A DNA stretch of 64,000 bases from Gammaproteobacteria bacterium. Its GTDB lineage: Bacteria > Pseudomonadota > Gammaproteobacteria > Steroidobacterales > Rariloculaceae. Each line of letters starts with the position of its first letter. Position 1 is the first letter of the stretch. This document shows positions 22,190 to 35,397 of this stretch, in pieces. The stretch covers positions 1 to 64,000 of the forward strand of contig PKRJ01000013.1 in the NCBI GenBank assembly GCA_017577365.1, read 5' to 3'. A program made the translations under genes and the position numbers. Under the pieces are notes generated by a model that was not told the origin of the DNA, made no database searches, and worked only from the letters and a program-made list of their open reading frames with translations.

Positions 22190-23560
22190 CTAGCCGACCG
22201 TCGGCCTTTGCGCGTCGTCGTGCATCGTCGCGAGGAATGTCCTGAGCGCGGCCTCGGCCTCGTCGGCCGGCATCAGCCTCTGCTCGGCGAGCACTTTCGC
22301 GATGTCTTTCAGCGTCCGCTTGCCGTCGATCAGCGACATGATGAACGCGTGCACGCGCGTCGCGACGATCTGCGAGCGGAACGCGGGCGAGAGCGGAATC
22401 GGCTCGTTGCCGCGGACGATCCAGTCGGGCAGCGCCTGATGGCGTGACGGCGCCTTCGCCGCGCGCGCCTTGTCGGCGCGCCACGCGACGACCTCCTCGA
22501 GACGCGCGTGCCGGCTCGCCGGCGACGCGAGATACGGTATGCGCCGCTCGCAAGTCGCGACCGGGGCGAAACCGTTCTCGCCGAGGGCGTCGAGGCATTC
22601 CTCGAGCGAGTACCTGAGCGCGGGGTCCGCATCGTGGAAAGTCAGCGAGCCGAAACTGATCCAGCGCCCGCCGTCGGCGAGGAGCCCGTTGATCCGCGCC
22701 GCGAGCGTATCGAACGGCTCCGGGAGGATATCGACGATCCACGGCGTGACGACGGTATCGAACGCGCCTTTCGCGAACGGCGGACGGTGCGCGTCGGCGA
22801 GCACGTGCAAGAGGCCGGGGCGCGCGGGCTCGGGCGCCGCGAGCCGGCGCAGCACCGCGTGGTCCTCGAGGCGCCGCGGTGCGAGCGGAAACTCGTGGAG
22901 CTCGACCGTCTCGCCGCGCGTGACGCGCTCGGAAACGAGCATCAGCAACGGGTTGAAATCGAGCACGACCGTGACCTCGGGCGCGAGACGACGGTGCACG
23001 TCGTAGGCGAGGCGGCCGGCGCCCGCGCCGAGCACGAGCACGCGCCCGGGCTTCGCGTCGCCGAGGACTTCGCGCACGATCTCGATCGACGCATCGTTCT
23101 CCTCGTCGCCCCAGGCCCAGTCGCGATGCACGTTGCCGTAATAGGTCATGAGCCCCTGGTCCGGCGGCAGGCGCGTGCGAAGGGCGAGGTAGGTCTCGAT
23201 GCTTGCGCCCGGCGCGTCGATGCCGAGCGGCGCGAGCAGCGCCGCGATGCGCTTCGCATGATCCTCGACCGCCGCGCGCAAGGCCTCGAGGCGCTTACGG
23301 GTCGCGGCGCGCCGTCCCGCGCGCTCGAGCGCGCGATCGAGCTCGTGCCGCCGCCGTTCGAGCTCGCGGAGCGAGAAGTTGAGCCTCGCGCGCCATTCGC
23401 CGAGCGCGGCCGTCGGCTCGGCGAACAGCCACGGGATCGATCCGACGTTCGGGAAGTCGACCTTGCAGCCCGCGCAGCGATAGCCGTTCGCGGTCTCGTC
23501 GAGCGGCGTGCGGTCGCAGCGCGGGCACGCGAGGAGCGGGGTCAGTTGCGGTGTCGTCAC
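22190..23560 (-). CDS. Three-domain SAM methyltransferase: Trm112-like zinc ribbon, N2227/CARNMT-like core, PqqD-like tail
   Basis: A 456-aa protein. Residues about 8-48 form a Trm112-like ribbon with CPRC and CAGC pairs. After a helical Arg-rich linker, the core (about 165-370) has the SAM motif VLVLGAGAGRLAYDVH, then VVTPWIVDILPEP and GGRWISFGSLTFH, resembling carnosine N-methyltransferase (N2227) where NFGPLLYH-like motifs occur. The C-terminal 75 residues (RVHAFIMSLIDGKRTLKDIAK) look like a PqqD or winged-helix module. The substrate is unknown; a small peptide or protein is plausible. It lies 21 bases upstream of the ACT gene on the same strand. Confidence 0.75.
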   Translation of the reverse strand: MTTPQLTPLLACPRCDRTPLDETANGYRCAGCKVDFPNVGSIPWLFAEPTAALGEWRARLNFSLRELERRRHELDRALERAGRRAATRKRLEALRAAVEDHAKRIAALLAPLGIDAPGASIETYLALRTRLPPDQGLMTYYGNVHRDWAWGDEENDASIEIVREVLGDAKPGRVLVLGAGAGRLAYDVHRRLAPEVTVVLDFNPLLMLVSERVTRGETVELHEFPLAPRRLEDHAVLRRLAAPEPARPGLLHVLADAHRPPFAKGAFDTVVTPWIVDILPEPFDTLAARINGLLADGGRWISFGSLTFHDADPALRYSLEECLDALGENGFAPVATCERRIPYLASPASRHARLEEVVAWRADKARAAKAPSRHQALPDWIVRGNEPIPLSPAFRSQIVATRVHAFIMSLIDGKRTLKDIAKVLAEQRLMPADEAEAALRTFLATMHDDAQRPTVG

Positions 23561-23691: not shown

Positions 23692-25305
23692 TTACGCAAT
23701 CGTGCCGTCCACGATCTTCTCGAACGCGATGAGCCGGTCGAGGCTGGCCGCGCCCCCGAGCGAGTTACCGAAGATCTCGGCGAAGCGGTTCTGCTCGTTG
23801 TGAAGCGCCAAGTAGTTCAGCACGACCATCTCGACGAGCAAATTGACGTTGTTCGCGCCCGGGGAGCTCGAGCGATCGACATCGCCGTTCGGCGTGAACC
23901 AGCCGATCTGCTGGTGCTGCTCGGGGGGCAGCCCGTCCAATCCGTTCTGGTAGAGCGCGGGCCTACCTCCCGGGTTGTAGACGAGGAAGAACGACGCGGC
24001 GGTATCCTGGTTGTCGCTCGTCCACTCGCCCTTGCCGCGGCCGTTCACCGAGTCGTCGATCACGCCGTTGCTCGAGAGCGATCCGTCGCTGAACACGTAG
24101 AGCATCAGCGGCACGCCGATACGATGGGCATACTCGAGGCAGGCGCCCATGCAGCGGCCGGCGCGGAAATCCTTGATCTCGCCTTCCTGCCGCGCGCCGC
24201 CGTGATAGTCGTAGCCGCCCATCGTGATGCAGCCGGCCCCGGCGTAGCCCTTGATCACGAGCTTCATCACAGACGCGGTCTTACGGAACTCGGCCCCGTC
24301 CGTGTTGTTCGCGAAGAACTCCTCGGCGCTGAAGATCCCGCCCGGTCCGACGATGAGCGGGTCCTGACCGGGATCGAGGACCTCTTTACCGAAGCGGTCC
24401 GCGATATCGGCCGCCTTGAGATAGCCGCATTTCACGAGGTCCTTGATGACCGCGTCGCCGCTGATACCGGTGGAGACGCGGTCGAGCTTGTCGCGGCTCA
24501 GGCGGTAGATCGACTCGAGCACCGCGGTCGCGTCCTCGGGGCCGAGCAGGCCGACCAGCTGCCCGGTGTCGATGAGGCTCGTCACGTCGCTCGGCCGATC
24601 GATCTTCGTCGGCCGGTACTGCGGGTCGATCATCGACAGCGGAGCCACCGAGTTTCCGCCGGATTCGGTGTTGCGCGAGCCGCAGAGCGTCAGGATAGAG
24701 CCGTCGGCCCCGGCCTTCTGGATGCCGTACAGCGGATTGTGCGGGTTGTTGCCCGTATCGTTCTCCGATCGCGCCGGGATGACCGCGCCGTTGATCATCG
24801 ATTCGATCCCGGGCGAGCGCAGGCTCGCCTGGATGCCGCGCAGGAAAGCGCTGTCGCTGTGGAACGCGAGGCCGAGACTCGTATCGGTGTGGTCGCCATT
24901 GCTCGTCGCGGTCGGCGCGGCTTCCGGCACGCCCGGGACCATGTTCCCCGGCAAGCCGAGCTTGCGGTAACCCGCGGTGCTCAGCGTATCGAACTGCCCC
25001 CCGCGGCCGCCGACGAGAACGTTCGAGCCCGCCATGTTCGCGCCCCCGGCGAGATCGAAGCAGATGAAGGGGATCTTGCCCGCGCCGTTCGTGATGCCGC
25101 AGGCCTGCTTCAACTCGATGAGATCGCCCGCGAGCTCGGCGTACGCCTGACGCGGGTTCGCGAAGAGCCCGAGGATTCCGCCCGACAACACGGTCGCGGA
25201 CCCGGCGATGAAACCCTGCGCAATCAGCTCGCGGCGCGTCATCGCGCGGTGATTCCGCTGCGGCGCTTCCGGATGCCGCAACTTGCGCTTGACCTTGATG
25301 ATCAT
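23692..25305 (-). CDS. Tat-exported DUF1501-like protein of the cytochrome cluster
   Basis: A 537-aa protein with a twin-arginine signal (MTRRELIAQGFIAGSATVLS at 22-41, cleavage likely after AYA near 56). The body has ICFDLAGGANMAGSNVLVG, GRCMGACLEYAHRIGVPLML and MEV-type LVEMVVLNYLALHNEQ segments, and an overall layout similar to DUF1501/sulfatase-like Tat proteins that accompany planctomycete-type cytochromes. No active site can be claimed. GGAGG precedes the start. It is the last gene of a three-gene leftward operon after two haem proteins, so it is presumably a cofactor-carrying or folded partner exported by Tat. Confidence 0.65.
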   Translation of the reverse strand: MIIKVKRKLRHPEAPQRNHRAMTRRELIAQGFIAGSATVLSGGILGLFANPRQAYAELAGDLIELKQACGITNGAGKIPFICFDLAGGANMAGSNVLVGGRGGQFDTLSTAGYRKLGLPGNMVPGVPEAAPTATSNGDHTDTSLGLAFHSDSAFLRGIQASLRSPGIESMINGAVIPARSENDTGNNPHNPLYGIQKAGADGSILTLCGSRNTESGGNSVAPLSMIDPQYRPTKIDRPSDVTSLIDTGQLVGLLGPEDATAVLESIYRLSRDKLDRVSTGISGDAVIKDLVKCGYLKAADIADRFGKEVLDPGQDPLIVGPGGIFSAEEFFANNTDGAEFRKTASVMKLVIKGYAGAGCITMGGYDYHGGARQEGEIKDFRAGRCMGACLEYAHRIGVPLMLYVFSDGSLSSNGVIDDSVNGRGKGEWTSDNQDTAASFFLVYNPGGRPALYQNGLDGLPPEQHQQIGWFTPNGDVDRSSSPGANNVNLLVEMVVLNYLALHNEQNRFAEIFGNSLGGAASLDRLIAFEKIVDGTIA

Positions 25306-25338
25306 ACCCTCTACCTCCGATCCGGATGCGCGGCCCGT

Positions 25339-27861
25339 TCACTGAACCAGCATCGCCGCGCTGCCGAGCACCGTCGCGCAGACGGCTTTCGCGAGCGTCA
25401 TCGTGCGCGCGTTCGTCTCGTCGTCCTCGTCCTCGTCTTCGACGTCGATCGTCGCCAGTCCGACGCGGCCTTCGTAGGGGTCGTACAGCATGCGGTGGAG
25501 CTCGGTCTTGATGGTCGCGTAATCCGGCTGCGTCGCGAGCTGCTCGCCGCCGTACAGGCGCGCGAGCAGCGGATCGACCAGGTCGTCGAGGCTCGCGCCC
25601 TGGAAGGCCGTGCCCGGCGGCGCACCGAAATCGAAATCTTCGAAGATCGTTCCGCGCAGCGTGTCGTTCTCGATCATCGCGTTGCAATACTCGATCGCGA
25701 GCTGCGCGATCGCGACCTGATGCGACGCGAGCACCGCCTCGAGCGTCGGCACCGCCGGCAGCGACTCGCGCACCGTCTCGAACGTGGCGCGGACGTTCGG
25801 ATCGTTCGGGCTCACGCCCGTGACCGCGGCCATCGTCGCATTGATCTCGTCGAAGATGCGAACGCCGATGTCCGAGGCCGGCGGGAGATCGGCCGGCGCG
25901 GGCGCGGGCGGAACCGGCGGCGGCTTGCGGCTGTAGCGATGGCCGCCGATCGCGTCGAACGTCAAAAAGAATTCGTCGGATTCCGGTCCCTTCTCCAAGG
26001 GAACGACGGTTCCGAGCTCGGCGAGGAGCTGGCCCGTCGCGGGATCGTACGTGTTCGTCGAGATCACGGCGTCGACCTTGGCGAACGCCTGGCCCACCGG
26101 CGCCTCGCTGCCGTTCAGGCCGATTCGAATGCCTTCGATCTCGAGGTTCTGCGGCTGTGCGGTCGCGTCGAGGCTGATGAAGAACGGCCGCCGGAACAGA
26201 TACGAATAGCTGTCGTACTGCGCGGCTTCGACGACGACGTAGCTTTGCGGGACGTTCGTCAGATGCTCGACGCCGAACAGCAGGAAGAACTTCTCGCCGA
26301 CGCCGGCCTCGTAGTTCTGCACGATCTGCTCTTCCGACAGCGCGCGGTTGTGGATCGCGACGAGCCGGATCACGCCCGCCCACGGCCGGTTGCCGGACAC
26401 CTCGTTCGCGAGCACGAACGCGTACGTGTCGTCCCAGTCGCCGAGCAGCCCGGGAGGCACCGGATCCGGCCCCGTCACGAGCACGCCGTTGACGTAGATC
26501 TTGCGCCCCTCGACCGGGTCGAACGTCGCGACGACGTGCTGCAGCGTCGCCTGCAGCACCTCGGCGGCCGACGGCGTCGACAGCGCGGGGCTGCCGTTCT
26601 CGTCGGTGAAGCTCGAGCGGACGAAGAAGTCGTAGTCGTACATCGTCTGCCCGAGATTGAAGTTGCGCAGCATCGGTCCGGCCGAATAGCTGACGATCCG
26701 CGCGTCCTCCTGCACGACGTTGGCCGGCGCGACCCACGCCTCGATCGAGAACTCGCCGGTCGCGCCGATCAGATCGCGCAGCTTGCGGCTCGCGGCGGTC
26801 GTCGCCTGCGCCTTGCCGCCCGAGAAGCTGACGCCCCAGCCGCCGTACCACTCGTAAGCGCCGGATAGCGTGAGGTCCATCGCCGGCTCGACGCCGCTCG
26901 TATCGAACGCGATATTGCCTACGCCCGTCTTGAACTCGTACAGCGCGATCACGTGCGCCTCGTAGCGGTTGCCGCCGGAGGCGATCGTGCCTTCGTGGAG
27001 CGTCAACGCCTTGCTCGCGAGCAGGCTGGGGTCGACGGGGGTCGGCTCGATGCCGTTCGCGAAGGCGCGGATCGCAGCCTCCATCTCGTCGGCATCGGCG
27101 GCGCAGTTGTTCGTCCAGCAGTTATGTGCTTCGACTCCGAGCCGCACGACGAAGCGCGAGCGGGCGGGGTCGTCGAGATCGATCCTCGCCTTCGCCGACT
27201 CGTACGCGGCTTGCACGGCCGCCGGGTTGGTTGCAGGCCCTTCCGCGAAGAACGGCGACTGCGGGGTCTTCGCGTTCGACGCGTGGCAGCTCGAGCAGTG
27301 CTCGGCCAGTAGCGGATAGACGGTCGTCTGGAATCCCGAGACGTCCGCCGGGAAACTCTTGCTCTGGCCGGGATCGCGAAGCGGCGGCGGCTCGAGCACG
27401 ATCTCCCGGCCGCCGACCGCCTGATCGCCGGCCCAGTTGCGGATCCACGTCTCGAGAATATCCGCGCACGCGCTATCGCTCGCGAGCCAGCAATTGTGGC
27501 CGCTCGCGACCTTCGTCACGATCAGCGAATCGCCGGGCGACGTCAGATCGACGACGGTGTTCGCCGCAGCATACGCGAGGTTGACGTCGTCCCCGCGCGC
27601 GAACATCGGTGCCTGGCCGACGTCGACGTCGTGGCAGCCGCCGCAGCGGTTCACCGGGCGAACGTTGTCGTAGAAATGAATCTTGAACGCCTGCACATCC
27701 GCCGTCGCGGGCGGCGGGCCGTTGTAGTTTCCGCCTCCGCCGCTGCCTCCCTGACCGGGAATCTCCTCCACGTCGGCGCCGCTGCCGCCGCTGCATCCCG
27801 CGAGCGCCGCACCGAGCATCGTCGCGAGCGCGATCGCAACGGCTCTCGCTCTCCGCTGCAT
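25339..27861 (-). CDS. Di-haem LamG-domain lipoprotein
   Basis: An 840-aa lipoprotein (signal MQRRARAVAIALATMLGAAL, lipobox Cys23). A Gly-rich linker leads to two planctomycete-type cytochrome modules with CGGCH at 73-77 and CSSCH at 189-193. Residues about 300-530 form a LamG/concanavalin-like domain (GEFSIEAWVAPANVV, GRKIYVNGVLV, GNRPWAGVIRLVAIHNRAL). The C-terminal third has no recognised fold and ends with an acidic EDEDEDD stretch and a hydrophobic tail. GGAGG supports ATG 27861; ATG 27888 would overlap the upstream stop by four bases and add nine residues. Probably surface or periplasm-facing, with electron transfer plus ligand binding. Confidence 0.75.
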   Translation of the reverse strand: MQRRARAVAIALATMLGAALAGCSGGSGADVEEIPGQGGSGGGGNYNGPPPATADVQAFKIHFYDNVRPVNRCGGCHDVDVGQAPMFARGDDVNLAYAAANTVVDLTSPGDSLIVTKVASGHNCWLASDSACADILETWIRNWAGDQAVGGREIVLEPPPLRDPGQSKSFPADVSGFQTTVYPLLAEHCSSCHASNAKTPQSPFFAEGPATNPAAVQAAYESAKARIDLDDPARSRFVVRLGVEAHNCWTNNCAADADEMEAAIRAFANGIEPTPVDPSLLASKALTLHEGTIASGGNRYEAHVIALYEFKTGVGNIAFDTSGVEPAMDLTLSGAYEWYGGWGVSFSGGKAQATTAASRKLRDLIGATGEFSIEAWVAPANVVQEDARIVSYSAGPMLRNFNLGQTMYDYDFFVRSSFTDENGSPALSTPSAAEVLQATLQHVVATFDPVEGRKIYVNGVLVTGPDPVPPGLLGDWDDTYAFVLANEVSGNRPWAGVIRLVAIHNRALSEEQIVQNYEAGVGEKFFLLFGVEHLTNVPQSYVVVEAAQYDSYSYLFRRPFFISLDATAQPQNLEIEGIRIGLNGSEAPVGQAFAKVDAVISTNTYDPATGQLLAELGTVVPLEKGPESDEFFLTFDAIGGHRYSRKPPPVPPAPAPADLPPASDIGVRIFDEINATMAAVTGVSPNDPNVRATFETVRESLPAVPTLEAVLASHQVAIAQLAIEYCNAMIENDTLRGTIFEDFDFGAPPGTAFQGASLDDLVDPLLARLYGGEQLATQPDYATIKTELHRMLYDPYEGRVGLATIDVEDEDEDDETNARTMTLAKAVCATVLGSAAMLVQ

Positions 27862-27884
27862 CGTCGTGCCTCCGCCCGTGAATC

Positions 27885-29081
27885 TCATTCGCCGCGGCAG
27901 TACACCGCGGACTGCGCGAAGACGTTCCGCAGGTCGTAGCCGCCCTTGAAGCTCTGGGTCAGGTCCGTGATGAACTCGTGGTCGTTCGCATCCGGATCGC
28001 GCAGGCAGACGTTCTTGAACACCTTCTTGACCTGGCACTGCGCGAACGCCTCGCTTCTCGCGAGCTCCATGCCCATCGATTTCGCGCCGTTACCGTGCCC
28101 GGGCAGCGTCGGATCCCAGCCGAGCAGCGCGTTGCGGCCGACCCTCCAGTAGTTCTCCCACGCGTCGTCGGGTGTGACGTAACCGTCGGGGAACGTGTCC
28201 GCGTTGTTGAAATACTTCGGCTGCACGATGCCTTGCGTGTACTCGATGCTGCCGGTGGCCGGATTGAAGTTGTAGTACGCGAACGCCTGCGCGAGCGGAT
28301 CCATGCCCGCGTGACAGCCGATGCAGTTGTTCATGAAGACGCGGCTGTCTCCGCCCGGGCTGCGCGAGACGTCCTGACGGATACGATCCGGAATCGTGCT
28401 CGTGTCGAGCACCTGCTCCATGTCGACGCACAAGTGATTGAGCAGCGTGAAGCGGAACATCGCGCGGTTCGTGCCGGCGATGAAGAAAGCTTCTGCCGCC
28501 GCGCGCGTCGTGATCGCGCCCGCGGTCGCGTTCGGCGGCAACGGATAGAACGCGGACTGCGCCGTTTGAACGATGTCCGTTTCCGGATCGAAGCTCGGGT
28601 CGTTCATCCGTCGCTCGAGCGCCTCGTAATGCGCGTTGCTCGACGCGGACGGCAACGGCGATACGCTCGGCGCGTAATAGAGCAGGTCCCCGTAGAGAAT
28701 CTGATCGAACGGAAGATCGTCTTTCACGAGCCCGATCACGAGCGTCGTGTAATCGTTCAACGGGACGAACGGCGACTGGTCGCGGTTCGTCCACGGTGCC
28801 GCGAAGTTCTTCAGCGTCACCGTATAGAAATGACGGTTGTGTGTCGCGAGGAGCGCGGCGCCGAGCGGGTTCTTGTTCTCGATCATCTGCGTCATCTGAC
28901 GGAGTACTGTCTCGTCCGCCGGCACGCCCGCGATTCGGTCGTGCATGCGCTGCGCCTGCTCTCGCGGGCCTGCCAACGCGCCGGCCGCGAGGCTCAATGC
29001 CGCGGCCGCGGCGAGCGTTTTCGACACACCCTTCCCCCACACGGTGCCCGATCTCGATCGCGATCGCGCTCGGCTGTTCAT
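27885..29081 (-). CDS. Exported mono-haem protein, first gene of the leftward operon
   Basis: A 398-aa protein with an N-terminal signal (KTLAAAAALSLAAGALAG) and one haem motif CIGCH near residue 253 followed by HAGMDPLAQAF, a pattern seen in DUF1585/DUF1592-family cytochromes of planctomycete type. The C-terminal SEAFAQCQVKKVFKNVCLRDP segment has two further Cys. AGGAAG precedes ATG 29081, which is preferred over the longer frame starting at 29111. It is divergent from the hydrazine-synthase-alpha-like gene across 335 bases and co-directional with the LamG and Tat genes, suggesting one redox assembly. Confidence 0.7.
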   Translation of the reverse strand: MNSRARSRSRSGTVWGKGVSKTLAAAAALSLAAGALAGPREQAQRMHDRIAGVPADETVLRQMTQMIENKNPLGAALLATHNRHFYTVTLKNFAAPWTNRDQSPFVPLNDYTTLVIGLVKDDLPFDQILYGDLLYYAPSVSPLPSASSNAHYEALERRMNDPSFDPETDIVQTAQSAFYPLPPNATAGAITTRAAAEAFFIAGTNRAMFRFTLLNHLCVDMEQVLDTSTIPDRIRQDVSRSPGGDSRVFMNNCIGCHAGMDPLAQAFAYYNFNPATGSIEYTQGIVQPKYFNNADTFPDGYVTPDDAWENYWRVGRNALLGWDPTLPGHGNGAKSMGMELARSEAFAQCQVKKVFKNVCLRDPDANDHEFITDLTQSFKGGYDLRNVFAQSAVYCRGE

Positions 29082-29416
29082 CTGTGCTTCCTGGATGCGA
29101 TGAGAAGTCATTCGATACGCGGCACGCTACCGCTTCGAGAAATTTCCTTCCACTGTAGAGCTTTCGCGACGTCTCGGTTTCGCGACAGGTTCGGCGAAGA
29201 GTAGCCCGCGGGTAAGCTCCGCGACGGTGATCTGGTACCGGTTTCTCGCAGCGGTTCTCGGGGAGGGAAGCGGCGGCGTGCCGGCGGACAACGCGCGGTG
29301 CGCACTACAGGCCGCGAATCGAGACGCCCCTCATGTTCGACATTCGCCTCTTCGTGCCGCCGTGTGATCGCGTTAACGGTAGACCTTTCTTGACGTGCTC
29401 ATTATTCGCGGACGCC
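29082..29416. other. Divergent promoter region between the two halves of the exported cytochrome locus
   Basis: 335 bases separating two divergent operons, so both promoters should lie here. I see no conserved operator or riboswitch. A TTGACG hexamer at 29390-29395 is a possible -35 box for the rightward operon but has no good -10 partner before 29417; it would suit the alternative start at 29474. Nothing else supportable. Confidence 0.4.
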
Positions 29417-32068
29417 ATGATTACGTTGAATCGTCGGGCGGCGAGTCGTGACGGTGCGCGCCGCTCGGCCTCGATGCCGACGGCCCGTCTACTTCTCGTT
29501 GCGCTCGCGGGCGTCCTCGGCGCGTGCGGCGGGGGCAGCGACGGCAGCGTCGGCGTCGGCTCCGGGCAGCAGCCCGATCCCGTCGTGCTGGATTTCCCGA
29601 TCGCTTACACGAAGGGGCCGCTGCTCGACGAGAACATGCAGCCGTTCTCCAGCGATCTCCGCGAGCTGCTGCGGTTCAACGTGGGCACCGATCTTTATGT
29701 CCGCGACCGGGCATCGCCGAGCTCCGAGGACCGGAACGTGACGTTCGAGTTCACCCAGGGCCTGGGCGACGTGCAGGGCCTCGAGATCTCGGCGGACGGG
29801 ACGAAAGTGCTGTTCTCGATGCGCGGTCCGTTCGATCCGAATCTCGACGAGGACGAGCAGCCGACGTGGAACATCTGGGAATACGACATCCCGACCGGGA
29901 CGCTGCGCCGCCTGATCGAATCGGATCTCGTCGCCGAGGCCGGCCACGACCTTTTTCCGCACTATCTGCCGGACGGCCGAATCATCTTCTCGTCGACGCG
30001 CCAGCGGCAGGCGAAGGCTATCCTGATCGACGAGGGCAAGCCGCAGTTCGATGCGCTCGACGAGGACCGTAACGAGCCCGCGTTCGTGCTGCACGTGATG
30101 AACGCGGATGGCACGGACATTCGTCAGATTTCGTTCAATCAGAGCCATGACCTCGAGCCGACCGTGCTCGACGACGGCAGGATTCTATTCAGCCGCTGGG
30201 ATCGCGCGGGTCCGCGCAACGGGATCCATCTTTACAGAATGAATCCCGACGGCACGGAGCTCGAGCTGCTCTACGGCGCGCGGAGTCACGCGACCGGAAC
30301 GAACGGCGCCCAGATCCAGTTCGTCGGCGCGCGCGAAATGCCGGACGGGCGCGTGATGGCGATCGCGCGGCCGTTCGAGCATCCCGATCACGGCGGCGAC
30401 ATCGTCGTGATCGACGTGCGTTATTTCGTCGAGAACGAGCAGCCCACGGCGCCGAACGCCGGGCTCGCGGGACCCGCTCAGACGCAGGCGACGTCACACA
30501 TCGTGCGCACTGATATCGGTCCTTCGCCCGGCGGCCGATTCGCGTCGGCGTTTCCGCTATGGGACGGCACGGGACGCATCCTCACGACGTGGACGATGTG
30601 CCGTCTCGTCGACGGCGAGGGACGCATCGGCCCGTGCACCGAGGAAGCGCTCGCCGACCCGGAAGCGACGCCGGCGCCGCCGCTCTACGGCGTATGGATC
30701 TACGACCCGCGCGACGATACGCATCAGCCGGTCGTCGTCGGCGAGGAAGGCGTGATGGTCGGCGAGGTGGTCGCCGCGCAGCCGCGCGGCAATCCGCGCT
30801 ATATCCCGGATCTGATCGGTGATGCGGACCTGGTGGCCGAGAACGCCGGCATTCTGAATATCCGCAGCGTCTACGACGTCGACGGCGTCGATACCGCGAA
30901 TCCGGATATCGCGACGCTCGCGGATCCGTCGCAGACGAGCGCCGACGACAGGCCGGCGCGCTTCCTGCGCGTCGTCAAAGCCGTCTCGCTCCCCGACGAT
31001 GACATCGTCGATCTCGACGGCACGGCGTTCGGCCCGAACGCCCGTCTCGGGATGCGCGAGATCGTCGCGTACGCGCCGATCGAGCCGGACGGCTCGGTGC
31101 GCATCAAGGTGCCCGCGCAGGTGCCGCTCGCGATCGAGGTTCTCGACCGCTTCGGGCGACGCATCTCGGCGCCCCATCACAACTGGCTCCAGGTCATGCC
31201 GGGCGAGGAGCGGAAGTGCAATGGCTGCCATAACCCGAATAGCGCGCTTTCGCACGGACGCGCGGACGCGTTCGAATCTGTCTACGCCGGCGCCGAGTCG
31301 ACCGGCGTGCCGTTCCCCGGAACCGTCGCTTCGATCAGTCCCGATCTCGGCGAGACGATGGCCGAGGCGAGGACCCGCGTGGGGTGCCAGATCGACTGCG
31401 CCGCGGCGCTCAGGCCGTCGGTCGACCTGGTCTACGAGGACGTCTGGACCGATCCGGCGGCACGCGAGCCGGACGAGCCTATTTCACTCCGTTACGGTGA
31501 CCTGACGACCGAACCTCCCACGACCCTCGCCTGCATGAACGCGTGGACGCCGAATTGCCGCATCGTCATTCACTACGAGACGCACATCCATCCGCTTTGG
31601 AGCGTCCCGCGACAGATCCTCGACGCGGACGGCGTCACGGTGCTCGCGGATCACACCTGCACGCGGGGCGGCTGTCACGTCCCGCTCGACGACATGGGCC
31701 AGACGGCGGTCCCGGCCGCGCAGCTCGACCTTTCCGACGGCCAGTCGCCGGATCAGGCCGCGCATTTCAACGCGTATCGGGAGCTGCTCTTCGGCGACAA
31801 CGCGCAGGAGGTCGTGGACGGCGCGCTGCAGGATATTCGGATCGAGGTCGGAATCGACGAGAACGGTATTCCGATCTTCGCGACCGTGCCGGTGCAGCCG
31901 TCGATGAGCGCGGCGGGCGCGCGCGCCTCGGCGCGCTTCTTCTCGCGATTCGATGCGGGCGGCACGCACGAAGGTTTTCTCACGGATGCCGAGCTGCGCT
32001 TGATCGCCGAATGGCTCGACCTCGGCGCGCAGTACTACAACGATCCGTTCGCCGTGCCGCAGGACTGA
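29417..32068 (+). CDS. HzsA-like beta-propeller lipoprotein with canonical and CX4CH haem motifs
   Basis: An 883-aa lipoprotein (VALAGVLGACGGG lipobox). The first half has TolB/PD40-like propeller repeats (LEISADGTKVLFSM, YLPDGRIIFSSTRQ, LDDGRILFSRWDRAG, MNPDGTELELLYG). The middle resembles the domain of hydrazine synthase alpha subunit (HzsA) relatives (GSVRIKVPAQVPLAIEVLD, HHNWLQVMPGEE) and leads to CNGCH at 601-605. Near the C-terminus CTRGGCH (748-754) is a CX4CH motif able to bind haem in some cytochromes. No Shine-Dalgarno sequence is clear; ATG 29474 (MPTARLLLV) is an alternative that trims the signal. Hydrazine synthesis itself is not implied. Confidence 0.72.
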   Translation: MITLNRRAASRDGARRSASMPTARLLLVALAGVLGACGGGSDGSVGVGSGQQPDPVVLDFPIAYTKGPLLDENMQPFSSDLRELLRFNVGTDLYVRDRASPSSEDRNVTFEFTQGLGDVQGLEISADGTKVLFSMRGPFDPNLDEDEQPTWNIWEYDIPTGTLRRLIESDLVAEAGHDLFPHYLPDGRIIFSSTRQRQAKAILIDEGKPQFDALDEDRNEPAFVLHVMNADGTDIRQISFNQSHDLEPTVLDDGRILFSRWDRAGPRNGIHLYRMNPDGTELELLYGARSHATGTNGAQIQFVGAREMPDGRVMAIARPFEHPDHGGDIVVIDVRYFVENEQPTAPNAGLAGPAQTQATSHIVRTDIGPSPGGRFASAFPLWDGTGRILTTWTMCRLVDGEGRIGPCTEEALADPEATPAPPLYGVWIYDPRDDTHQPVVVGEEGVMVGEVVAAQPRGNPRYIPDLIGDADLVAENAGILNIRSVYDVDGVDTANPDIATLADPSQTSADDRPARFLRVVKAVSLPDDDIVDLDGTAFGPNARLGMREIVAYAPIEPDGSVRIKVPAQVPLAIEVLDRFGRRISAPHHNWLQVMPGEERKCNGCHNPNSALSHGRADAFESVYAGAESTGVPFPGTVASISPDLGETMAEARTRVGCQIDCAAALRPSVDLVYEDVWTDPAAREPDEPISLRYGDLTTEPPTTLACMNAWTPNCRIVIHYETHIHPLWSVPRQILDADGVTVLADHTCTRGGCHVPLDDMGQTAVPAAQLDLSDGQSPDQAAHFNAYRELLFGDNAQEVVDGALQDIRIEVGIDENGIPIFATVPVQPSMSAAGARASARFFSRFDAGGTHEGFLTDAELRLIAEWLDLGAQYYNDPFAVPQD

Positions 32069-32072
32069 CGAC

Positions 32073-32852
32073 GTGCGGTACGAGATCGGACGGCGACGGC
32101 TTCGAAGGGCGGCAAGAGCGCTCGTCGCGGCCGTGTTGCTGTGCGGAGCGGGCTTCGCACCGAGCGCGCTGGCCAAGCGGGGCGCCGTCGAGGTCGTCGT
32201 CGAGGATCCCTATCTCGAGCTTCATACCGGACCGGGACGCGGTTATCCGATCTTCTACGTCGCCGAGCGGGGCGAGACGGTCGAGGTGCTGAAGCGGCGC
32301 ACCGACTGGTTCCGCATTCGCATTCCGCGTGGGCAGGAGGGCTGGGTGCCCCTCGAGCAGATGCGCAGGACGCTCGGCCTCGACGGCGAGCCGTTCGACG
32401 TGCCGACCTTCGACGTCGCGGATCTCGCCGAGCGGCGCTGGGAAACGGGGGTGCTTTACGGCGACTTCGGCGGCGCGAACGTGATCTCGGTCTACGGCGC
32501 GTTCGGCATGACGCCGAATCTGTCGATCGAGCTTTGGCTCTCGCAGGCCCTCGGGCGCTTCTCCGACAGCAAGATCGCGAGCCTCGACATCGTGCACACG
32601 ATGTTCCCCGACCGCCGCTTCTCGCCGTATATCGCGCTCGGCGCGGGGGTCGTCGAAACGGATCCGAAAGCGACGCTCGTCGCCGCGACCGACCGCAGCG
32701 ACAACGCCGCGCACGCGGGGGCGGGACTCCGCGCGTATTTGGCCCGGCGCTTCGTGTTTCGCGCCGAGTACAAGACCTACGTCGTGTTCACGAGCCGCGA
32801 CGACAACGAGGAAATCAGAGAATGGAAAGCAGGCTTCTCGTTCTTCTTCTGA
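32073..32852 (+). CDS. SH3-domain outer-membrane beta-barrel protein
   Basis: A 259-aa exported protein. A signal peptide (AARALVAAVLLCGAGFAPSALA) is followed by a bacterial SH3 domain (about 38-98, LELHTGPGRGYPIFYVAERGE, WFRIRIPRGQEGWV) and a small eight-strand-type barrel ending in the aromatic GFSFFF, the C-terminal signature recognised by the Bam machine. The GTG start lies 4 bases after the stop of the previous gene. The SH3 domain may bind peptidoglycan and hold the barrel near the cell wall. It overlaps the next gene by 31 bases. Confidence 0.8.
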   Translation: MRYEIGRRRLRRAARALVAAVLLCGAGFAPSALAKRGAVEVVVEDPYLELHTGPGRGYPIFYVAERGETVEVLKRRTDWFRIRIPRGQEGWVPLEQMRRTLGLDGEPFDVPTFDVADLAERRWETGVLYGDFGGANVISVYGAFGMTPNLSIELWLSQALGRFSDSKIASLDIVHTMFPDRRFSPYIALGAGVVETDPKATLVAATDRSDNAAHAGAGLRAYLARRFVFRAEYKTYVVFTSRDDNEEIREWKAGFSFFF

Positions 32853-33475
32853 CGGTGCCGCTCGCGCTCGGGCTCGCGGGCTGCGGGAGACATCGCGTCG
32901 CCGCGGTCGACGCGGACGAGCCGCCCGTGATCGAGCCGAGAGTGGAACGGCGCGAGGTCGACGTCGCCGACATCGACACCGAGAACTTCGAGCTCGGCGT
33001 CTTCGCGGGCCAGATCAGCGTCGAGGATTTCGGCGTGAACACCGTGGGCGGCGTGCGATTCGCGTACCACGTGACCGAAGGTTTCTTCGTCGAGGCGGCG
33101 GCCGGGCGCGCCGACACCGAGCCGACGAGCTTCGAGCGGCTGAGCGGCGCTGCGCAACTGCTCACGGATTCGGAGAGAGAGTACACCTACTATAACGTTT
33201 CGCTCGGCTACAACATCTTGCCGGGCGAGACGTTCATCGGGCGCAACCGTGCGATGAACATGGCGCTTTATGTCATAGGCGGCGTGGGTAGCACGAAGTT
33301 CGCGGGCGACGATCGGTTCACGCTGAACTTCGGCATGGGGATGCGGCTGCTGCCGCTCGACTGGCTCGCCGTGCACGCGGACGTTCGCGATCACATCATG
33401 GATCTCGACGTGCTCGGCAGCCAGAAGACGGTGCACAACCTCGAGGCGCACGTCGGCGTGACGTTCTTCTTCTAG
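32822..33475 (+). CDS. Outer-membrane beta-barrel lipoprotein-like protein
   Basis: A 217-aa protein with a lipobox-type signal (LLTVPLALGLAGC, Cys about 21) and a barrel of the same family as its upstream neighbour without the SH3 domain: FELGVFAGQISVEDFGVNTV, YTYYNVSLGYNILPG, MGMRLLPLDWLAVHADVRDH and terminal VTFFF. Lipoprotein processing of a barrel protein is unusual; the Cys could be fortuitous and the signal a standard one. Start lies within the end of the SH3-barrel gene, so they are translationally linked. Confidence 0.75.
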   Translation: MESRLLVLLLTVPLALGLAGCGRHRVAAVDADEPPVIEPRVERREVDVADIDTENFELGVFAGQISVEDFGVNTVGGVRFAYHVTEGFFVEAAAGRADTEPTSFERLSGAAQLLTDSEREYTYYNVSLGYNILPGETFIGRNRAMNMALYVIGGVGSTKFAGDDRFTLNFGMGMRLLPLDWLAVHADVRDHIMDLDVLGSQKTVHNLEAHVGVTFFF

Positions 33476-33486
33476 CGAGGTGAGCC

Positions 33487-33990
33487 ATGCGGAAAACGAC
33501 GATGCTGGGGAAGATCATCGGGGCGGCGGCGAGCGTGCTGCTCGCGATCGGCGCGCATGCCGATGATGTCTCGGGGCCCGCGCCGAATTTCACGCTGAAG
33601 TCTCGCGACGGCGGCACGGTATCGCTCGAGGATTTCGCGGGCGACGTCGTGCTGATCAACTTCTGGGCGACATGGTGCGGGCCTTGCCGCAAGGAGATGC
33701 CGCATCTCGAGGCGCTTCATCAGCGCTACAAGAATCTCGGCTTCACGCTGCTCGGCATCAACGTCGAGGACGACACGAGAGGCGTCGAGAAGTTTCTGAA
33801 AGAAACGCCGGTCAGCTTCCCCGTGCTGCTCGATCCGGCGAACGAGGTCAGCGGTCTGTATCGAGTCGTCGCGATGCCGACGACCGTGATCATCGATCGC
33901 AACGGCCAGATGCGCTATATCCATCACGGCTACCAGTCCGGCTACGAGCATCAGTATCAGGCTCAGATCAGGGAGCTGTTGCGAGAATGA
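33487..33990 (+). CDS. TlpA/ResA-type periplasmic thioredoxin
   Basis: A 167-aa protein with a signal peptide (about 1-25) and a thioredoxin fold carrying CGPC at 64-67 in NFWATWCGPCRKEMP and the cis-proline segment VVAMPTTVIID. Proteins of this type reduce disulfides, often to free haem-binding cysteines or to protect Cys-rich partners. It precedes, with a four-base overlap, the DUF4266 lipoprotein that ends in Cys-Gly-Cys, and follows genes for exported haem proteins, so its clients are probably these. GAGGTGAGCC precedes the start. Confidence 0.92.
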   Translation: MRKTTMLGKIIGAAASVLLAIGAHADDVSGPAPNFTLKSRDGGTVSLEDFAGDVVLINFWATWCGPCRKEMPHLEALHQRYKNLGFTLLGINVEDDTRGVEKFLKETPVSFPVLLDPANEVSGLYRVVAMPTTVIIDRNGQMRYIHHGYQSGYEHQYQAQIRELLRE

Positions 33991-34247
33991 CGAGCCGTTC
34001 GCTGCAATCGGCACGGCGCGGCCCAACGGCCGCCGCGGCCGTGCTCGCGGTGCTCGCGACGTTGCTGCTCGGCGGTTGCGCGGTCGAGCCGTGGGTGAAA
34101 CCTTACGAGCGCGACCGCATCGCCGATCCGATCATGTCGTGGGATCGCGATCCGGTCTCGAGCGCCTATCTCCATCACGTCTACGAAGCGCGTGAAGGCG
34201 CGCGAGGCGCGACGGGTAGCGCCGGAGGCGGCTGTGGCTGCAATTAG
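33987..34247 (+). CDS. DUF4266 small lipoprotein with C-terminal Cys-Gly-Cys
   Basis: An 86-aa protein with a lipobox (LLLGGC, Cys31), the DUF4266 core MSWDRDPVSSAYLHHVYEARE, a Gly-rich spacer and the ending GGGCGCN (Cys83 and Cys85). The CGCN ending is characteristic of the family. The free thiol pair looks suited to metal binding, covalent cofactor attachment, or a disulfide handled by the neighbouring TlpA. Members regularly neighbour DUF3570 barrels. Start overlaps the TlpA stop. No function has been established to my knowledge. Confidence 0.85.
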   Translation: MTSRSLQSARRGPTAAAAVLAVLATLLLGGCAVEPWVKPYERDRIADPIMSWDRDPVSSAYLHHVYEAREGARGATGSAGGGCGCN

Positions 34248-35397
34248 CCGCGGATCGCTACCGCGTCGTGCAGCCGCTGTGCTCGCGGCGTGCGCGGCGG
34301 CGCTGTCGTGCGCGGTGCGCGCCGGTGTGCTTCCCGAGGATCGTGCGGATCTCCTTTATCACTCGTACGATGGCGGCGGCGTGACGATCGACGGCCCGTC
34401 GCTCCTCGTGCGCAAACAGTTCGCGGACAAGTTTTCGGCGTCGGCGAACTATTACGTCGACCGCGTGACGAGCGCCTCGATCGACGTCGTGACGACCGCG
34501 AGCCCGTATACCGAGGAGCGCACGCAGTACTCGCTCGGGCTCGACTACCTGCACGATCGGTGGCTGCTGAACCTGGGCTACACGTCGAGCGAGGAGAACG
34601 ACTATTCGGCGTCGACCTTCAGCGTCGGCGTGAGCCAGGACTTTTTTGGCGACCTCACGACGCTGTCGCTCGGCTACAGCCTCGGCAAGGACGAGGTGGG
34701 GCGCCGCGGCGATTCGATCTTCAAGGATACCGTCGAGCGTCAGCAGTACCGCATCGGGCTCTCGCAGATCCTGACACGGAATCTGATCGTCGGGTTGTCG
34801 TTCGAGACGATCACCGACGAAGGCTTTCTCAACAATCCGTACCGTCAGGTCCGCTATATCGACGAGACGAGCCCGCTCGGCTACGCGTACGAGCCGGAGG
34901 TTTATCCGCGCACAAGGACGAGCGATGCGGCCGCGTTCCGGTTGCGTTATCACCTGCCGTATCGCGCGGCGTTGCACGGCGAGTACCGCTGGTACACGGA
35001 TAGCTGGGATATCGGCGCCGATACCTTCGAGCTCGGCTACACGCATCCGCTCGACGGCGGCTGGATCCTCGAGGCGAAGGTCAGGCTCTATTCGCAGACC
35101 GCGGCCTCGTTCTACGAGGATCTCTTCCCGCGCTCGCGGTTCCAGAACTTCATGGCGCGCGACAAGGAGCTCAGCACCTTCGACAGCCGCACGATTAGGA
35201 TCGGCGCGAGCTACGACGTGCTGCGCGGCGGTTGGAAATTCGTCGATCGGGGCACGGTCAACATCGCGTACGACCGCATCCGGTTCGACTACAAGGATTT
35301 CCGCGATCTTCGCGTGACGGGCGTGCCGCCGGGCCAGGAGCCGCTCTACGGCTTCGACGCGAACGTCGTGCAGGTGTTCGTGTCGTTCTGGTTCTGA
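34234..35397 (+). CDS. DUF3570 outer-membrane beta-barrel protein
   Basis: A 387-aa protein with a signal peptide (PRRAAAVLAACAAALSCAVRA) and a barrel of alternating aromatic strands: FSASANYYVDRVTSASIDVV, TEERTQYSLGLDYLHDRWLL, AALHGEYRWYTDSWDIGADT and terminal VFVSFWF. The GTG at 34234 is chosen because GGAGG sits five bases upstream and the signal peptide then starts correctly; it overlaps the DUF4266 gene by 14 bases. DUF3570 proteins are coded with DUF4266, TlpA and often ApbE; they are proposed outer-membrane partners. It ends the rightward operon. Confidence 0.88.
   Translation: MAAISRGSLPRRAAAVLAACAAALSCAVRAGVLPEDRADLLYHSYDGGGVTIDGPSLLVRKQFADKFSASANYYVDRVTSASIDVVTTASPYTEERTQYSLGLDYLHDRWLLNLGYTSSEENDYSASTFSVGVSQDFFGDLTTLSLGYSLGKDEVGRRGDSIFKDTVERQQYRIGLSQILTRNLIVGLSFETITDEGFLNNPYRQVRYIDETSPLGYAYEPEVYPRTRTSDAAAFRLRYHLPYRAALHGEYRWYTDSWDIGADTFELGYTHPLDGGWILEAKVRLYSQTAASFYEDLFPRSRFQNFMARDKELSTFDSRTIRIGASYDVLRGGWKFVDRGTVNIAYDRIRFDYKDFRDLRVTGVPPGQEPLYGFDANVVQVFVSFWF

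Follow-up and report, generated by a model that had tools for sequence, protein, structure and literature searches.

Two divergent operons for exported haem, barrel and thiol proteins in Gammaproteobacteria, and their possible tie to an Agl/Glt-like envelope motor

The stretch of DNA analysed here (the window) comprises 64,000 nucleotides from a gammaproteobacterium of the family Rariloculaceae (assembly GCA_017577365.1, contig PKRJ01000013.1, positions 1 to 64,000). It holds nine genes for exported proteins in two divergent runs, three on the minus and six on the plus strand, and all nine were found where the original prediction had placed two divergent operons with exported products. Domains were assigned from Pfam and NCBIfam profiles, lipoprotein and twin-arginine translocation (Tat) assignments were based on motifs rather than a signal-peptide program, and the start codons are our own reading of the frames. 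The features are as follows.

23692..25305, minus strand: Tat protein with a twin-arginine motif and, weakly, a fold like that of the alkaline phosphatase/sulfatase superfamily
25339..27861, minus strand: lipoprotein with two haem c motifs, a LamG domain (Laminin_G_3, 6.1e-20) and a helical C-terminus
27885..29111, minus strand: exported one-haem protein with the motif CIGCH, probably of a divergent PSCyt3-PSD2 type (motif count, PSD2 matches)
29112..29473, no strand: divergent intergenic region of about 360 bases between the runs
29474..32068, plus strand: HzsA-like lipoprotein with a propeller (PD40), an HZS middle domain (HZS_alpha, 3.9e-14; haem motif CNGCH) and a C-terminal haem motif (CTRGGCH)
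32073..32852, plus strand: SH3 domain with an outer-membrane beta-barrel (SH3_3, 1.6e-10; OMP_b-brl, 3.2e-7)
32822..33475, plus strand: outer-membrane barrel with a lipobox-like signal (TIGR04565, OMP_myx_plus, 7.8e-49, above cut-off)
33487..33990, plus strand: TlpA/ResA-like thioredoxin, WCGPC (AhpC-TSA, 1.3e-32)
33987..34247, plus strand: DUF4266 lipoprotein with the C-terminal end GGCGCN (DUF4266, 5.9e-23)
34192..35397, plus strand: DUF3570 outer-membrane protein with degenerate ApbE motifs, TSAS and TTAS (DUF3570, 1.8e-44)

The predicted LamG domain, HzsA-like propeller, thioredoxin and Cys-Gly-Cys lipoprotein all agree with the profile matches and the GGCGCN tail. Of the three outer-membrane barrels that had been claimed, two reach the Pfam cut-off for OMP_b-brl (3e-7 and 5e-7), while the third, the DUF3570 protein, is a barrel by family membership only. 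The three genes on the minus strand are referred to below as the trio.

Relatives of these genes were collected in several samples. An even draw of 229 Gammaproteobacteria genomes served as the main co-occurrence sample and 39 closer relatives as the second, three genomes being common to both. A scan of one genome each for 84,980 species gave at least 578 stretches with a gene for a Tat-protein relative, and the best 80 were kept as the named loci; these have 10 kb flanks and many end at contig ends, so that absences there are no evidence of loss. In addition, 28 stretches were fetched round the CIGCH gene (the class loci), and 16 further stretches were hand-chosen from matches to the HzsA-like protein and to p192, a gene described below. 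Conservation was counted over distinct orthologues across 107 fetched loci, with L130 left out as a repeat of L101. The first Tat alignment was made without L032 (in-frame stop), L021 and L030, and L137 and L104 were dropped from alignments A8 and A11, respectively.

The arrangement seen in the window recurs across genomes. Among the closer relatives, 14 of the 15 stretches with a Tat-protein match have the same order and divergence up to the contig or stretch ends; in L029 no TlpA was detected. The same layout was found in the best 80 of the at least 578 stretches, again up to their ends, 15 of them without a detected TlpA; the carriers among these named loci include Alteromonas, Paraglaciecola, Microbulbifer, Marinobacter, Porticoccus, Aliikangiella and Woeseia. 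Within the 229 genomes, where linkage was counted from the best match per genome, 31 have the CIGCH gene and 35, from 25 families, the HzsA-like gene. Both occur in 29, on one contig in 26 of these and within 8.4 kb of each other in 23. The HzsA-like gene thus accompanies the trio cytochrome in 29 of 31 genomes, compared with 6 of the 198 others (related genomes counted), and in the 39 relatives it accompanies the Tat gene in 15 of 15 genomes, compared with 2 of 24. All 28 class loci contain the CIGCH, LamG and Tat genes, 20 the HzsA-like gene and 17 the DUF3570 gene, and some of the others end at contig ends. The original prediction had named conserved neighbourhood as its check, and unlinked runs or conservation of the DUF4266/DUF3570 part only as the outcome that would speak against it. 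Because the runs are linked in most genomes with both, this outcome was not observed, and conservation of the DUF4266/DUF3570 part alone was rejected, as the whole layout recurs across loci. The fifteenth stretch from the closer relatives, L032, lies on a second contig of the genome that holds L018 and has a lone divergent Tat paralogue.

Haem sites were expected in three proteins, four or five in all. There are exactly five, two in the LamG protein, one in the CIGCH protein and two in the HzsA-like protein (CNGCH and CTRGGCH), and they are conserved in orthologues. The CIGCH protein has one CxxCH motif in 99 of 99 near-full-length distinct orthologues, 92 of 93 LamG orthologues have two, and two motifs are present in the C-terminal half of the HzsA-like protein in 77 of 77, the second being CxxCH in 75 and CxxxxCH in 2. 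The four residues between the cysteines of the window's CTRGGCH are a spacing shared with 2 of the 77. Such nearly fixed counts indicate that the motifs have not arisen by chance. An MtrCAB-type conduit consists of a multihaem cytochrome embedded in a large porin; unlike this, the haem counts here are 1, 2 and 2 in the three haem proteins.

The plus-strand run ends in genes that resemble a described flavin system. In passages of Meheust et al. 2021 (PMC8238504), ApbE is shown to flavinylate a DUF3570 protein that carries two [ST]GA[ST] motifs. Genes for DUF3570, DUF4266, ApbE and a thioredoxin-like protein are often found grouped, and such groups are placed there among extracytosolic electron-transfer systems. 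The window shares with that system DUF3570, a CxC-ended DUF4266 protein and an adjacent thioredoxin-like protein, with ApbE present in the stretches of some relatives; it differs in its degenerate motifs, in the absence of DsbD among the nine genes and in the added haem proteins and two further barrels. The GGCGCN end of DUF4266 is kept in 67 of 67 orthologues. Since the DUF4266 gene was found in 55 of the 229 genomes, it occurs also outside the nine-gene system. In 15 named loci the barrel and DUF4266 are both present, but no TlpA was detected between them (L040, L046, L048, L049, L056, L058, L061, L067, L073, L081, L084, L086, L088, L098 and L104), and TlpA therefore seems dispensable or replaced; the count of 49 named loci with TlpA includes three matches of about 35% that lie downstream of the Tat gene (L057, L062, L097). 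No [ST]GA[ST] motif is present in the window's DUF3570 protein, the single DUF3570 match in its genome. Among 75 loci of relatives, 23 keep the first motif, 3 have the second only and 49 have neither, like the window. ApbE was found in the fetched stretch, flank lengths differing, in 10 of the 23 first-motif loci, 0 of the 3 second-only loci and 9 of the 49 motif-less loci, so that its tie to the first motif is weak (10/23 versus 9/49, p 0.043). No ApbE match was found in the window, and two ApbE genes lie on other contigs of the same genome. Because motif retention and nearby ApbE vary among loci, flavin use may differ between lineages. Loss of ApbE was also considered as the explanation for loss of the motif and set aside, given the weak association and the nine motif-less loci with ApbE in the stretch.

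Clustering of the neighbouring genes across the loci brought out ApbE together with a run composed of p192, three tetratricopeptide repeat (TPR) genes, ExbD genes and a gene for a TonB-like protein. The latter protein carries an AgmX/PglI tail (NF033768) in three genomes (1.1e-16, 1.9e-19 and 5.3e-19, the last, above the cut-off, for the transducer of the window's own genome) and matches GltG at up to 4.3e-12, again for the own genome's transducer, short of the equivalog cut-off. In genome G163, where the order was read gene by gene, the core includes matches to MotA_ExbB (1.2e-27) and ExbD (3.8e-12 and 4.2e-18). The three TPR genes stand in order; GltE matched at 7e-8, under its cut-off and less well than other TPR models. 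In the genome of the window such a core lies on contig C65 (L147, 5136-14741), beginning with a TlpA paralogue and continuing with p192, three TPR genes, ExbB, two ExbD genes and the AgmX-tail protein; its ExbB and ExbD genes were found by tblastn. Neither ExbB/ExbD nor any other core gene was found in the window itself.

By composition, the linked TPR/ExbB/ExbD/AgmX-tail cluster is the Agl/Glt core complex, which passages of Luciano et al. 2011 (PMC3169522) describe as conserved in gammaproteobacteria with its function unknown. Parts of Wartel et al. 2013 (PMC3858216) describe the gammaproteobacterial core as standalone, and the Agl-Glt/Nfs machineries as systems for transport at the surface that interact with polysaccharides outside the cell. 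The cluster shares with the Agl/Glt (Nfs) core of Myxococcus xanthus and gammaproteobacteria the ExbB/TolQ channel, two ExbD/TolR proteins, a GltG-like transducer with the AgmX/PglI tail and three TPR proteins. Both have one extra gene, encoded together with the rest, and p192 may be that gene. What differs here is that the core, itself outside the window, is joined to or co-inherited with the HzsA-like cytochrome, DUF3570/DUF4266/TlpA, partly ApbE, and the trio. A GltJ profile match was encountered in passing (weak, 1.6e-6), no search having been aimed at the Group A genes (gltF, H, I, J, A, B, K). The original prediction of a self-contained exported redox system thus holds for the conserved exported haem gene set, while the ExbB/ExbD-driven Agl/Glt-like core and, in part, ApbE had been missed.

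The association between this core and the nine genes is strong in both genome samples. The p192 gene, which served as the marker of the TPR/ExbB/ExbD/AgmX-tail cluster, is present in 52 of the 229 genomes, in 34 of 35 with the HzsA-like gene versus 18 of 194 without it (Fisher 3e-26, related genomes counted), and in the 39 relatives in 17 of 17 with it versus 4 of 22 without. The lone HzsA-like genome without p192 is G071 (L126, 7600-9150), in which the match covers profile positions 8-458 of 861, the propeller part only; the genes from SH3 to DUF3570 were not detected at this site. The best p192 match lies on the contig of the HzsA-like gene in 23 of the 35 genomes and within 10.1 kb of it in 21. 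Among the class loci, p192 was found in 14 of 28, always beside the trio or the DUF3570 end. It follows the HzsA-like to DUF3570 genes on the same strand in 8 of the 14; elsewhere it stands beside the trio or, in L143, after DUF3570 without an HzsA-like match. Half of the 16 hand-chosen stretches have the HzsA-like gene, SH3 barrel, barrel, DUF3570, p192 and Glt-like TPR genes all on one strand. ApbE leads such an array, TlpA and DUF4266 included, in G163, G194, G081 and G223 (in the last to the contig end). The trio lies outside these four ApbE-led arrays: G163, G194 and G223 have no CIGCH match, and in G081 the CIGCH gene is about 365 kb away. A rearranged locus was seen in G174 (L140), with the HzsA-like operon, ApbE and the trio on one strand and the Glt-like core divergent from them.

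The trio contributes proteins with weaker ties to known families. A twin-arginine motif is present in 103 of 106 orthologues of the Tat protein, which has no meaningful Pfam match. Its AlphaFold2 model is of moderate quality (mean predicted local distance difference test score, pLDDT, 67). The 50 Foldseek matches listed were to alkaline phosphatases, sulfatases, phosphoglycerate mutases and phosphoethanolamine transferases, with a best E-value of 2.8e-3, none at 1e-3, and query TM-scores of 0.09-0.23. The model thus weakly resembles the alkaline phosphatase/sulfatase superfamily, which leaves the earlier statement that no enzyme of known metabolism is included uncertain; a resemblance to DUF1501 is also presumed here. 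A PDB sequence search with the Tat and CIGCH proteins returned nothing useful. For the LamG protein, the AlphaFold2 model (mean pLDDT 78) has a lectin-like jelly roll and a helical C-terminus, the placement of the domains being uncertain because the predicted TM-score is 0.47. The 50 PDB matches listed for it were generic concanavalin-like jelly rolls (query TM-score about 0.2, 7-16% identity), including the lectin-like parts of trypanosome sialidases and clostridial toxins; as clues to function these were set aside, since the similarity is one of fold only.

The window's CIGCH protein itself stays below the cut-offs for PSD2 (0.0049) and PSCyt3 (0.18). Ten members of the family were scanned, the window's included, and 8 of 10 match PSD2 at E-values up to 1 (best 1.4e-7) and 5 of 10 PSCyt3 (best 0.016). 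Because most members match PSD2 and some PSCyt3, the protein is probably a divergent planctomycete-type cytochrome, and the planctomycete-type modules of the original prediction are thereby probably retained, through its relatives, for this one-haem protein. According to passages of He et al. 2017 (PMC5615132), carbohydrate-binding modules, pfam13385 among them, are found in some cytochrome genes of planctomycete type, and these often have sulfatase genes close by; the authors suggest that they take part in carbohydrate metabolism, with nothing known of the function. The trio shares with these a PSD2-like, weakly PSCyt3-like C-terminus, a LamG domain (pfam13385) and a sulfatase-superfamily-like neighbour; it differs in that these parts are split over separate, very divergent proteins, in Gammaproteobacteria, and in that the Tat protein has no Pfam family. 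Partly because of this link to carbohydrate-binding modules and sulfatases, we consider that the trio, by analogy, probably handles a surface polymer.

The trio is separable from the six-gene operon, since each occurs without the other in some of the 229 genomes: 6 of 35 with the HzsA-like gene have no CIGCH match, and 2 of 31 with CIGCH have no HzsA-like gene. A profile of the CIGCH protein, run across the phylum, gave matches in 5 of 299 genomes; the five all belong to the same class, the number of the 299 from outside it not being shown. A mobile element was considered as the setting and set aside, the Tat protein being found in 0 of 72,556 plasmid records, the mobile context that was searched. 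Divergent trio paralogues, with Tat proteins of 40-49% identity and no adjoining HzsA-like match, were seen in L134, L135, L137, L142 and L143; the L143 locus has the SH3 to DUF3570 genes, though no HzsA-like match.

Gene content, conservation, linkage, co-occurrence and haem counts were observed directly in the genomes. With these in hand, we tentatively favour, at slightly less than even confidence, a reading in which the window's nine genes form one portion of a larger cell-envelope machine that is driven by protons and has a redox arm at the outer membrane, together with a separable trio. We infer that all the products would form one complex. Its core would consist of an inner-membrane proton channel (ExbB and two ExbD proteins), a force transducer with a TonB/AgmX tail and periplasmic TPR proteins, as in the Agl/Glt machinery of Myxococcus. 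The outer-membrane arm would comprise two small barrels, the DUF3570 barrel, the HzsA-like lipoprotein with its two haems, the DUF4266 protein with its CxC tail and, in most cases, TlpA; the DUF3570 barrel is probably flavinylated wherever the ApbE motif has been retained. The motor would move or strain this arm while the arm holds a polymer of the surface or the environment, possibly a glycan, as suggested by the LamG domain and the Glt/Nfs precedent. The trio, composed of the LamG two-haem lipoprotein, the PSD-type one-haem protein and the Tat-exported phosphatase/sulfatase-like protein, would process the held polymer, with the LamG protein binding it. The haem and thiol centres, together with flavin where the motif is retained, would carry electrons between surface and periplasm, the direction of this flow and the substrate being likewise deduced.

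Several observations weigh against such a machine. In the genome of the window, the core and the nine genes are on different contigs, a separation also seen in 11 of the 34 genomes with both the HzsA-like gene and p192. Glt-like cores without nearby members of the nine genes were found in G045, G056, G123 and G058 (L160-L163), whose p192 is more distant, and 18 of the 52 p192 genomes have no HzsA-like match; the core therefore does not require the redox arm. Assignment of the Glt TPR proteins was by order, length and general TPR matches, with GltG and GltE falling below their equivalog cut-offs. The co-occurrence tests count related genomes without correction for phylogeny, and six of the seven sequences behind the p192 profile came from loci found via the nine-gene system. 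The tie between the DUF3570 motif and ApbE is weak (p 0.043), and for the polymer substrate the grounds are analogy and a generic LamG fold.

Individually, the parts belong or come close to known families, and it is their combination that appears new; no paper naming these parts together stood among the search results listed from open-licence PubMed Central, a scope that leaves out most subscription journals and supplements. A set of partners can now be proposed, in part of the lineages, for the gammaproteobacterial Agl/Glt core, which was called function-open in 2011 and standalone in 2013, and this link is testable in cultured marine bacteria. The HzsA-like cytochrome and the DUF3570/DUF4266 pair gain a physical setting, and five conserved haem sites are placed in proteins without an assigned function. 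That the whole constitutes a new class of surface machine, in which an Agl/Glt-type proton motor and an outer-membrane redox chain of haem, flavin and thiol centres combine mechanical work and polymer redox chemistry in one apparatus, is a bolder proposal that we consider doubtful. If true, it would give a function to part of the gammaproteobacterial Glt cores.

The alternative that survives best, though we regard it as rather unlikely, is a stand-alone complex for extracellular electron transfer or substrate oxidation, as in the original prediction, in which barrels and lipoprotein cytochromes carry respiratory electrons across the outer membrane and the Glt-like core is a mere frequent neighbour. 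It is consistent with the five conserved haem sites, TlpA, the CxC tail, the ApbE gene near the locus in some genomes and the occurrence of Glt-like cores without the nine genes, as well as with the placing of DUF3570/DUF4266/thioredoxin/ApbE clusters among extracytosolic electron-transfer systems in the passages of PMC8238504. However, one or two haems per protein do not make a multihaem wire, and the strong co-occurrence and the co-directional arrays with motor genes would be left unexplained.

We find it improbable that the system serves to acquire iron or another metal, with flavin and haem reducing extracellular metal and an ExbB/ExbD/TonB-like motor energising uptake. The wider system does include a TonB-like energiser, and 25 DUF3570 clusters with a VIT1 iron transporter are reported in a passage of Meheust et al. 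(PMC8238504), but none of the nine proteins matches a TonB-receptor or metal-transporter family, and the transducer is of the AgmX/PglI type. The annotation of neighbours took in 10 proteins and carries no claim about nearby transporters; a cation-efflux-like protein, so named from reading its sequence, was seen in a neighbour cluster of 4 loci, about 9 kb away.

An apparatus for gliding or other surface motility, to which the relation to the Agl/Glt core and the TIGR04565 barrels would point, is in our view very unlikely.

Least probable by far is a nitrogen chemistry akin to that of hydrazine synthase, which the HZS middle domain, propeller and two haem motifs recall, and which is disfavoured by the ligand residues. 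The profile of the HzsA-like protein matches HzsA (PDB 5c2v_A) at 1.7e-14 overall, with aligned stretches in three parts (propeller, middle haem domain, C-terminus); only that in the middle domain is significant by itself (3e-5). The two proteins have in common the propeller, a middle domain with the haem alphaI motif (PF18582, 3.9e-14) and a second haem motif further C-terminal, which is present in 77 of 77 orthologues and whose alignment to 5c2v_A is not significant. The window protein differs in its partner genes and in that Cys303 and the Tyr591 ligand are not conserved. A tyrosine at +4 from the haem-1 histidine, corresponding to Tyr591, was found in 0 of 77 orthologues, and a cysteine at the position matching Cys303 in 0 of 11 aligned rows of a weak alignment stretch, in which the position was placed by offset from the 5c2v_A alignment (His587 being chain position 560). 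No beta or gamma subunit of hydrazine synthase was recognised among the nine genes, the rest of the genome not having been searched for them. As these positions are not kept, and as passages of Hagglund et al. 2025 (PMC12758564) describe key residues as lost in other HzsA homologues, which are rejected there as unrecognised anammox enzymes, the protein is probably HzsA-like in build and not a hydrazine synthase.

Directly downstream of the Tat gene, on the same strand, the window encodes a possible extra member (22190..23560, minus strand), a CARME-like methyltransferase (CARME, 2.8e-7) with a C-terminal PqqD-like domain (PqqD, 8e-5, just below cut-off), which we take to be peptide-binding. 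By clustering, 27 of the 80 named loci have a homologue close to the Tat gene, in 25 of them downstream on the same strand; by tblastn, it was found in 31 of the 80 named loci and 1 of the 28 class loci. These counts rule it out as a fixed member of the system.

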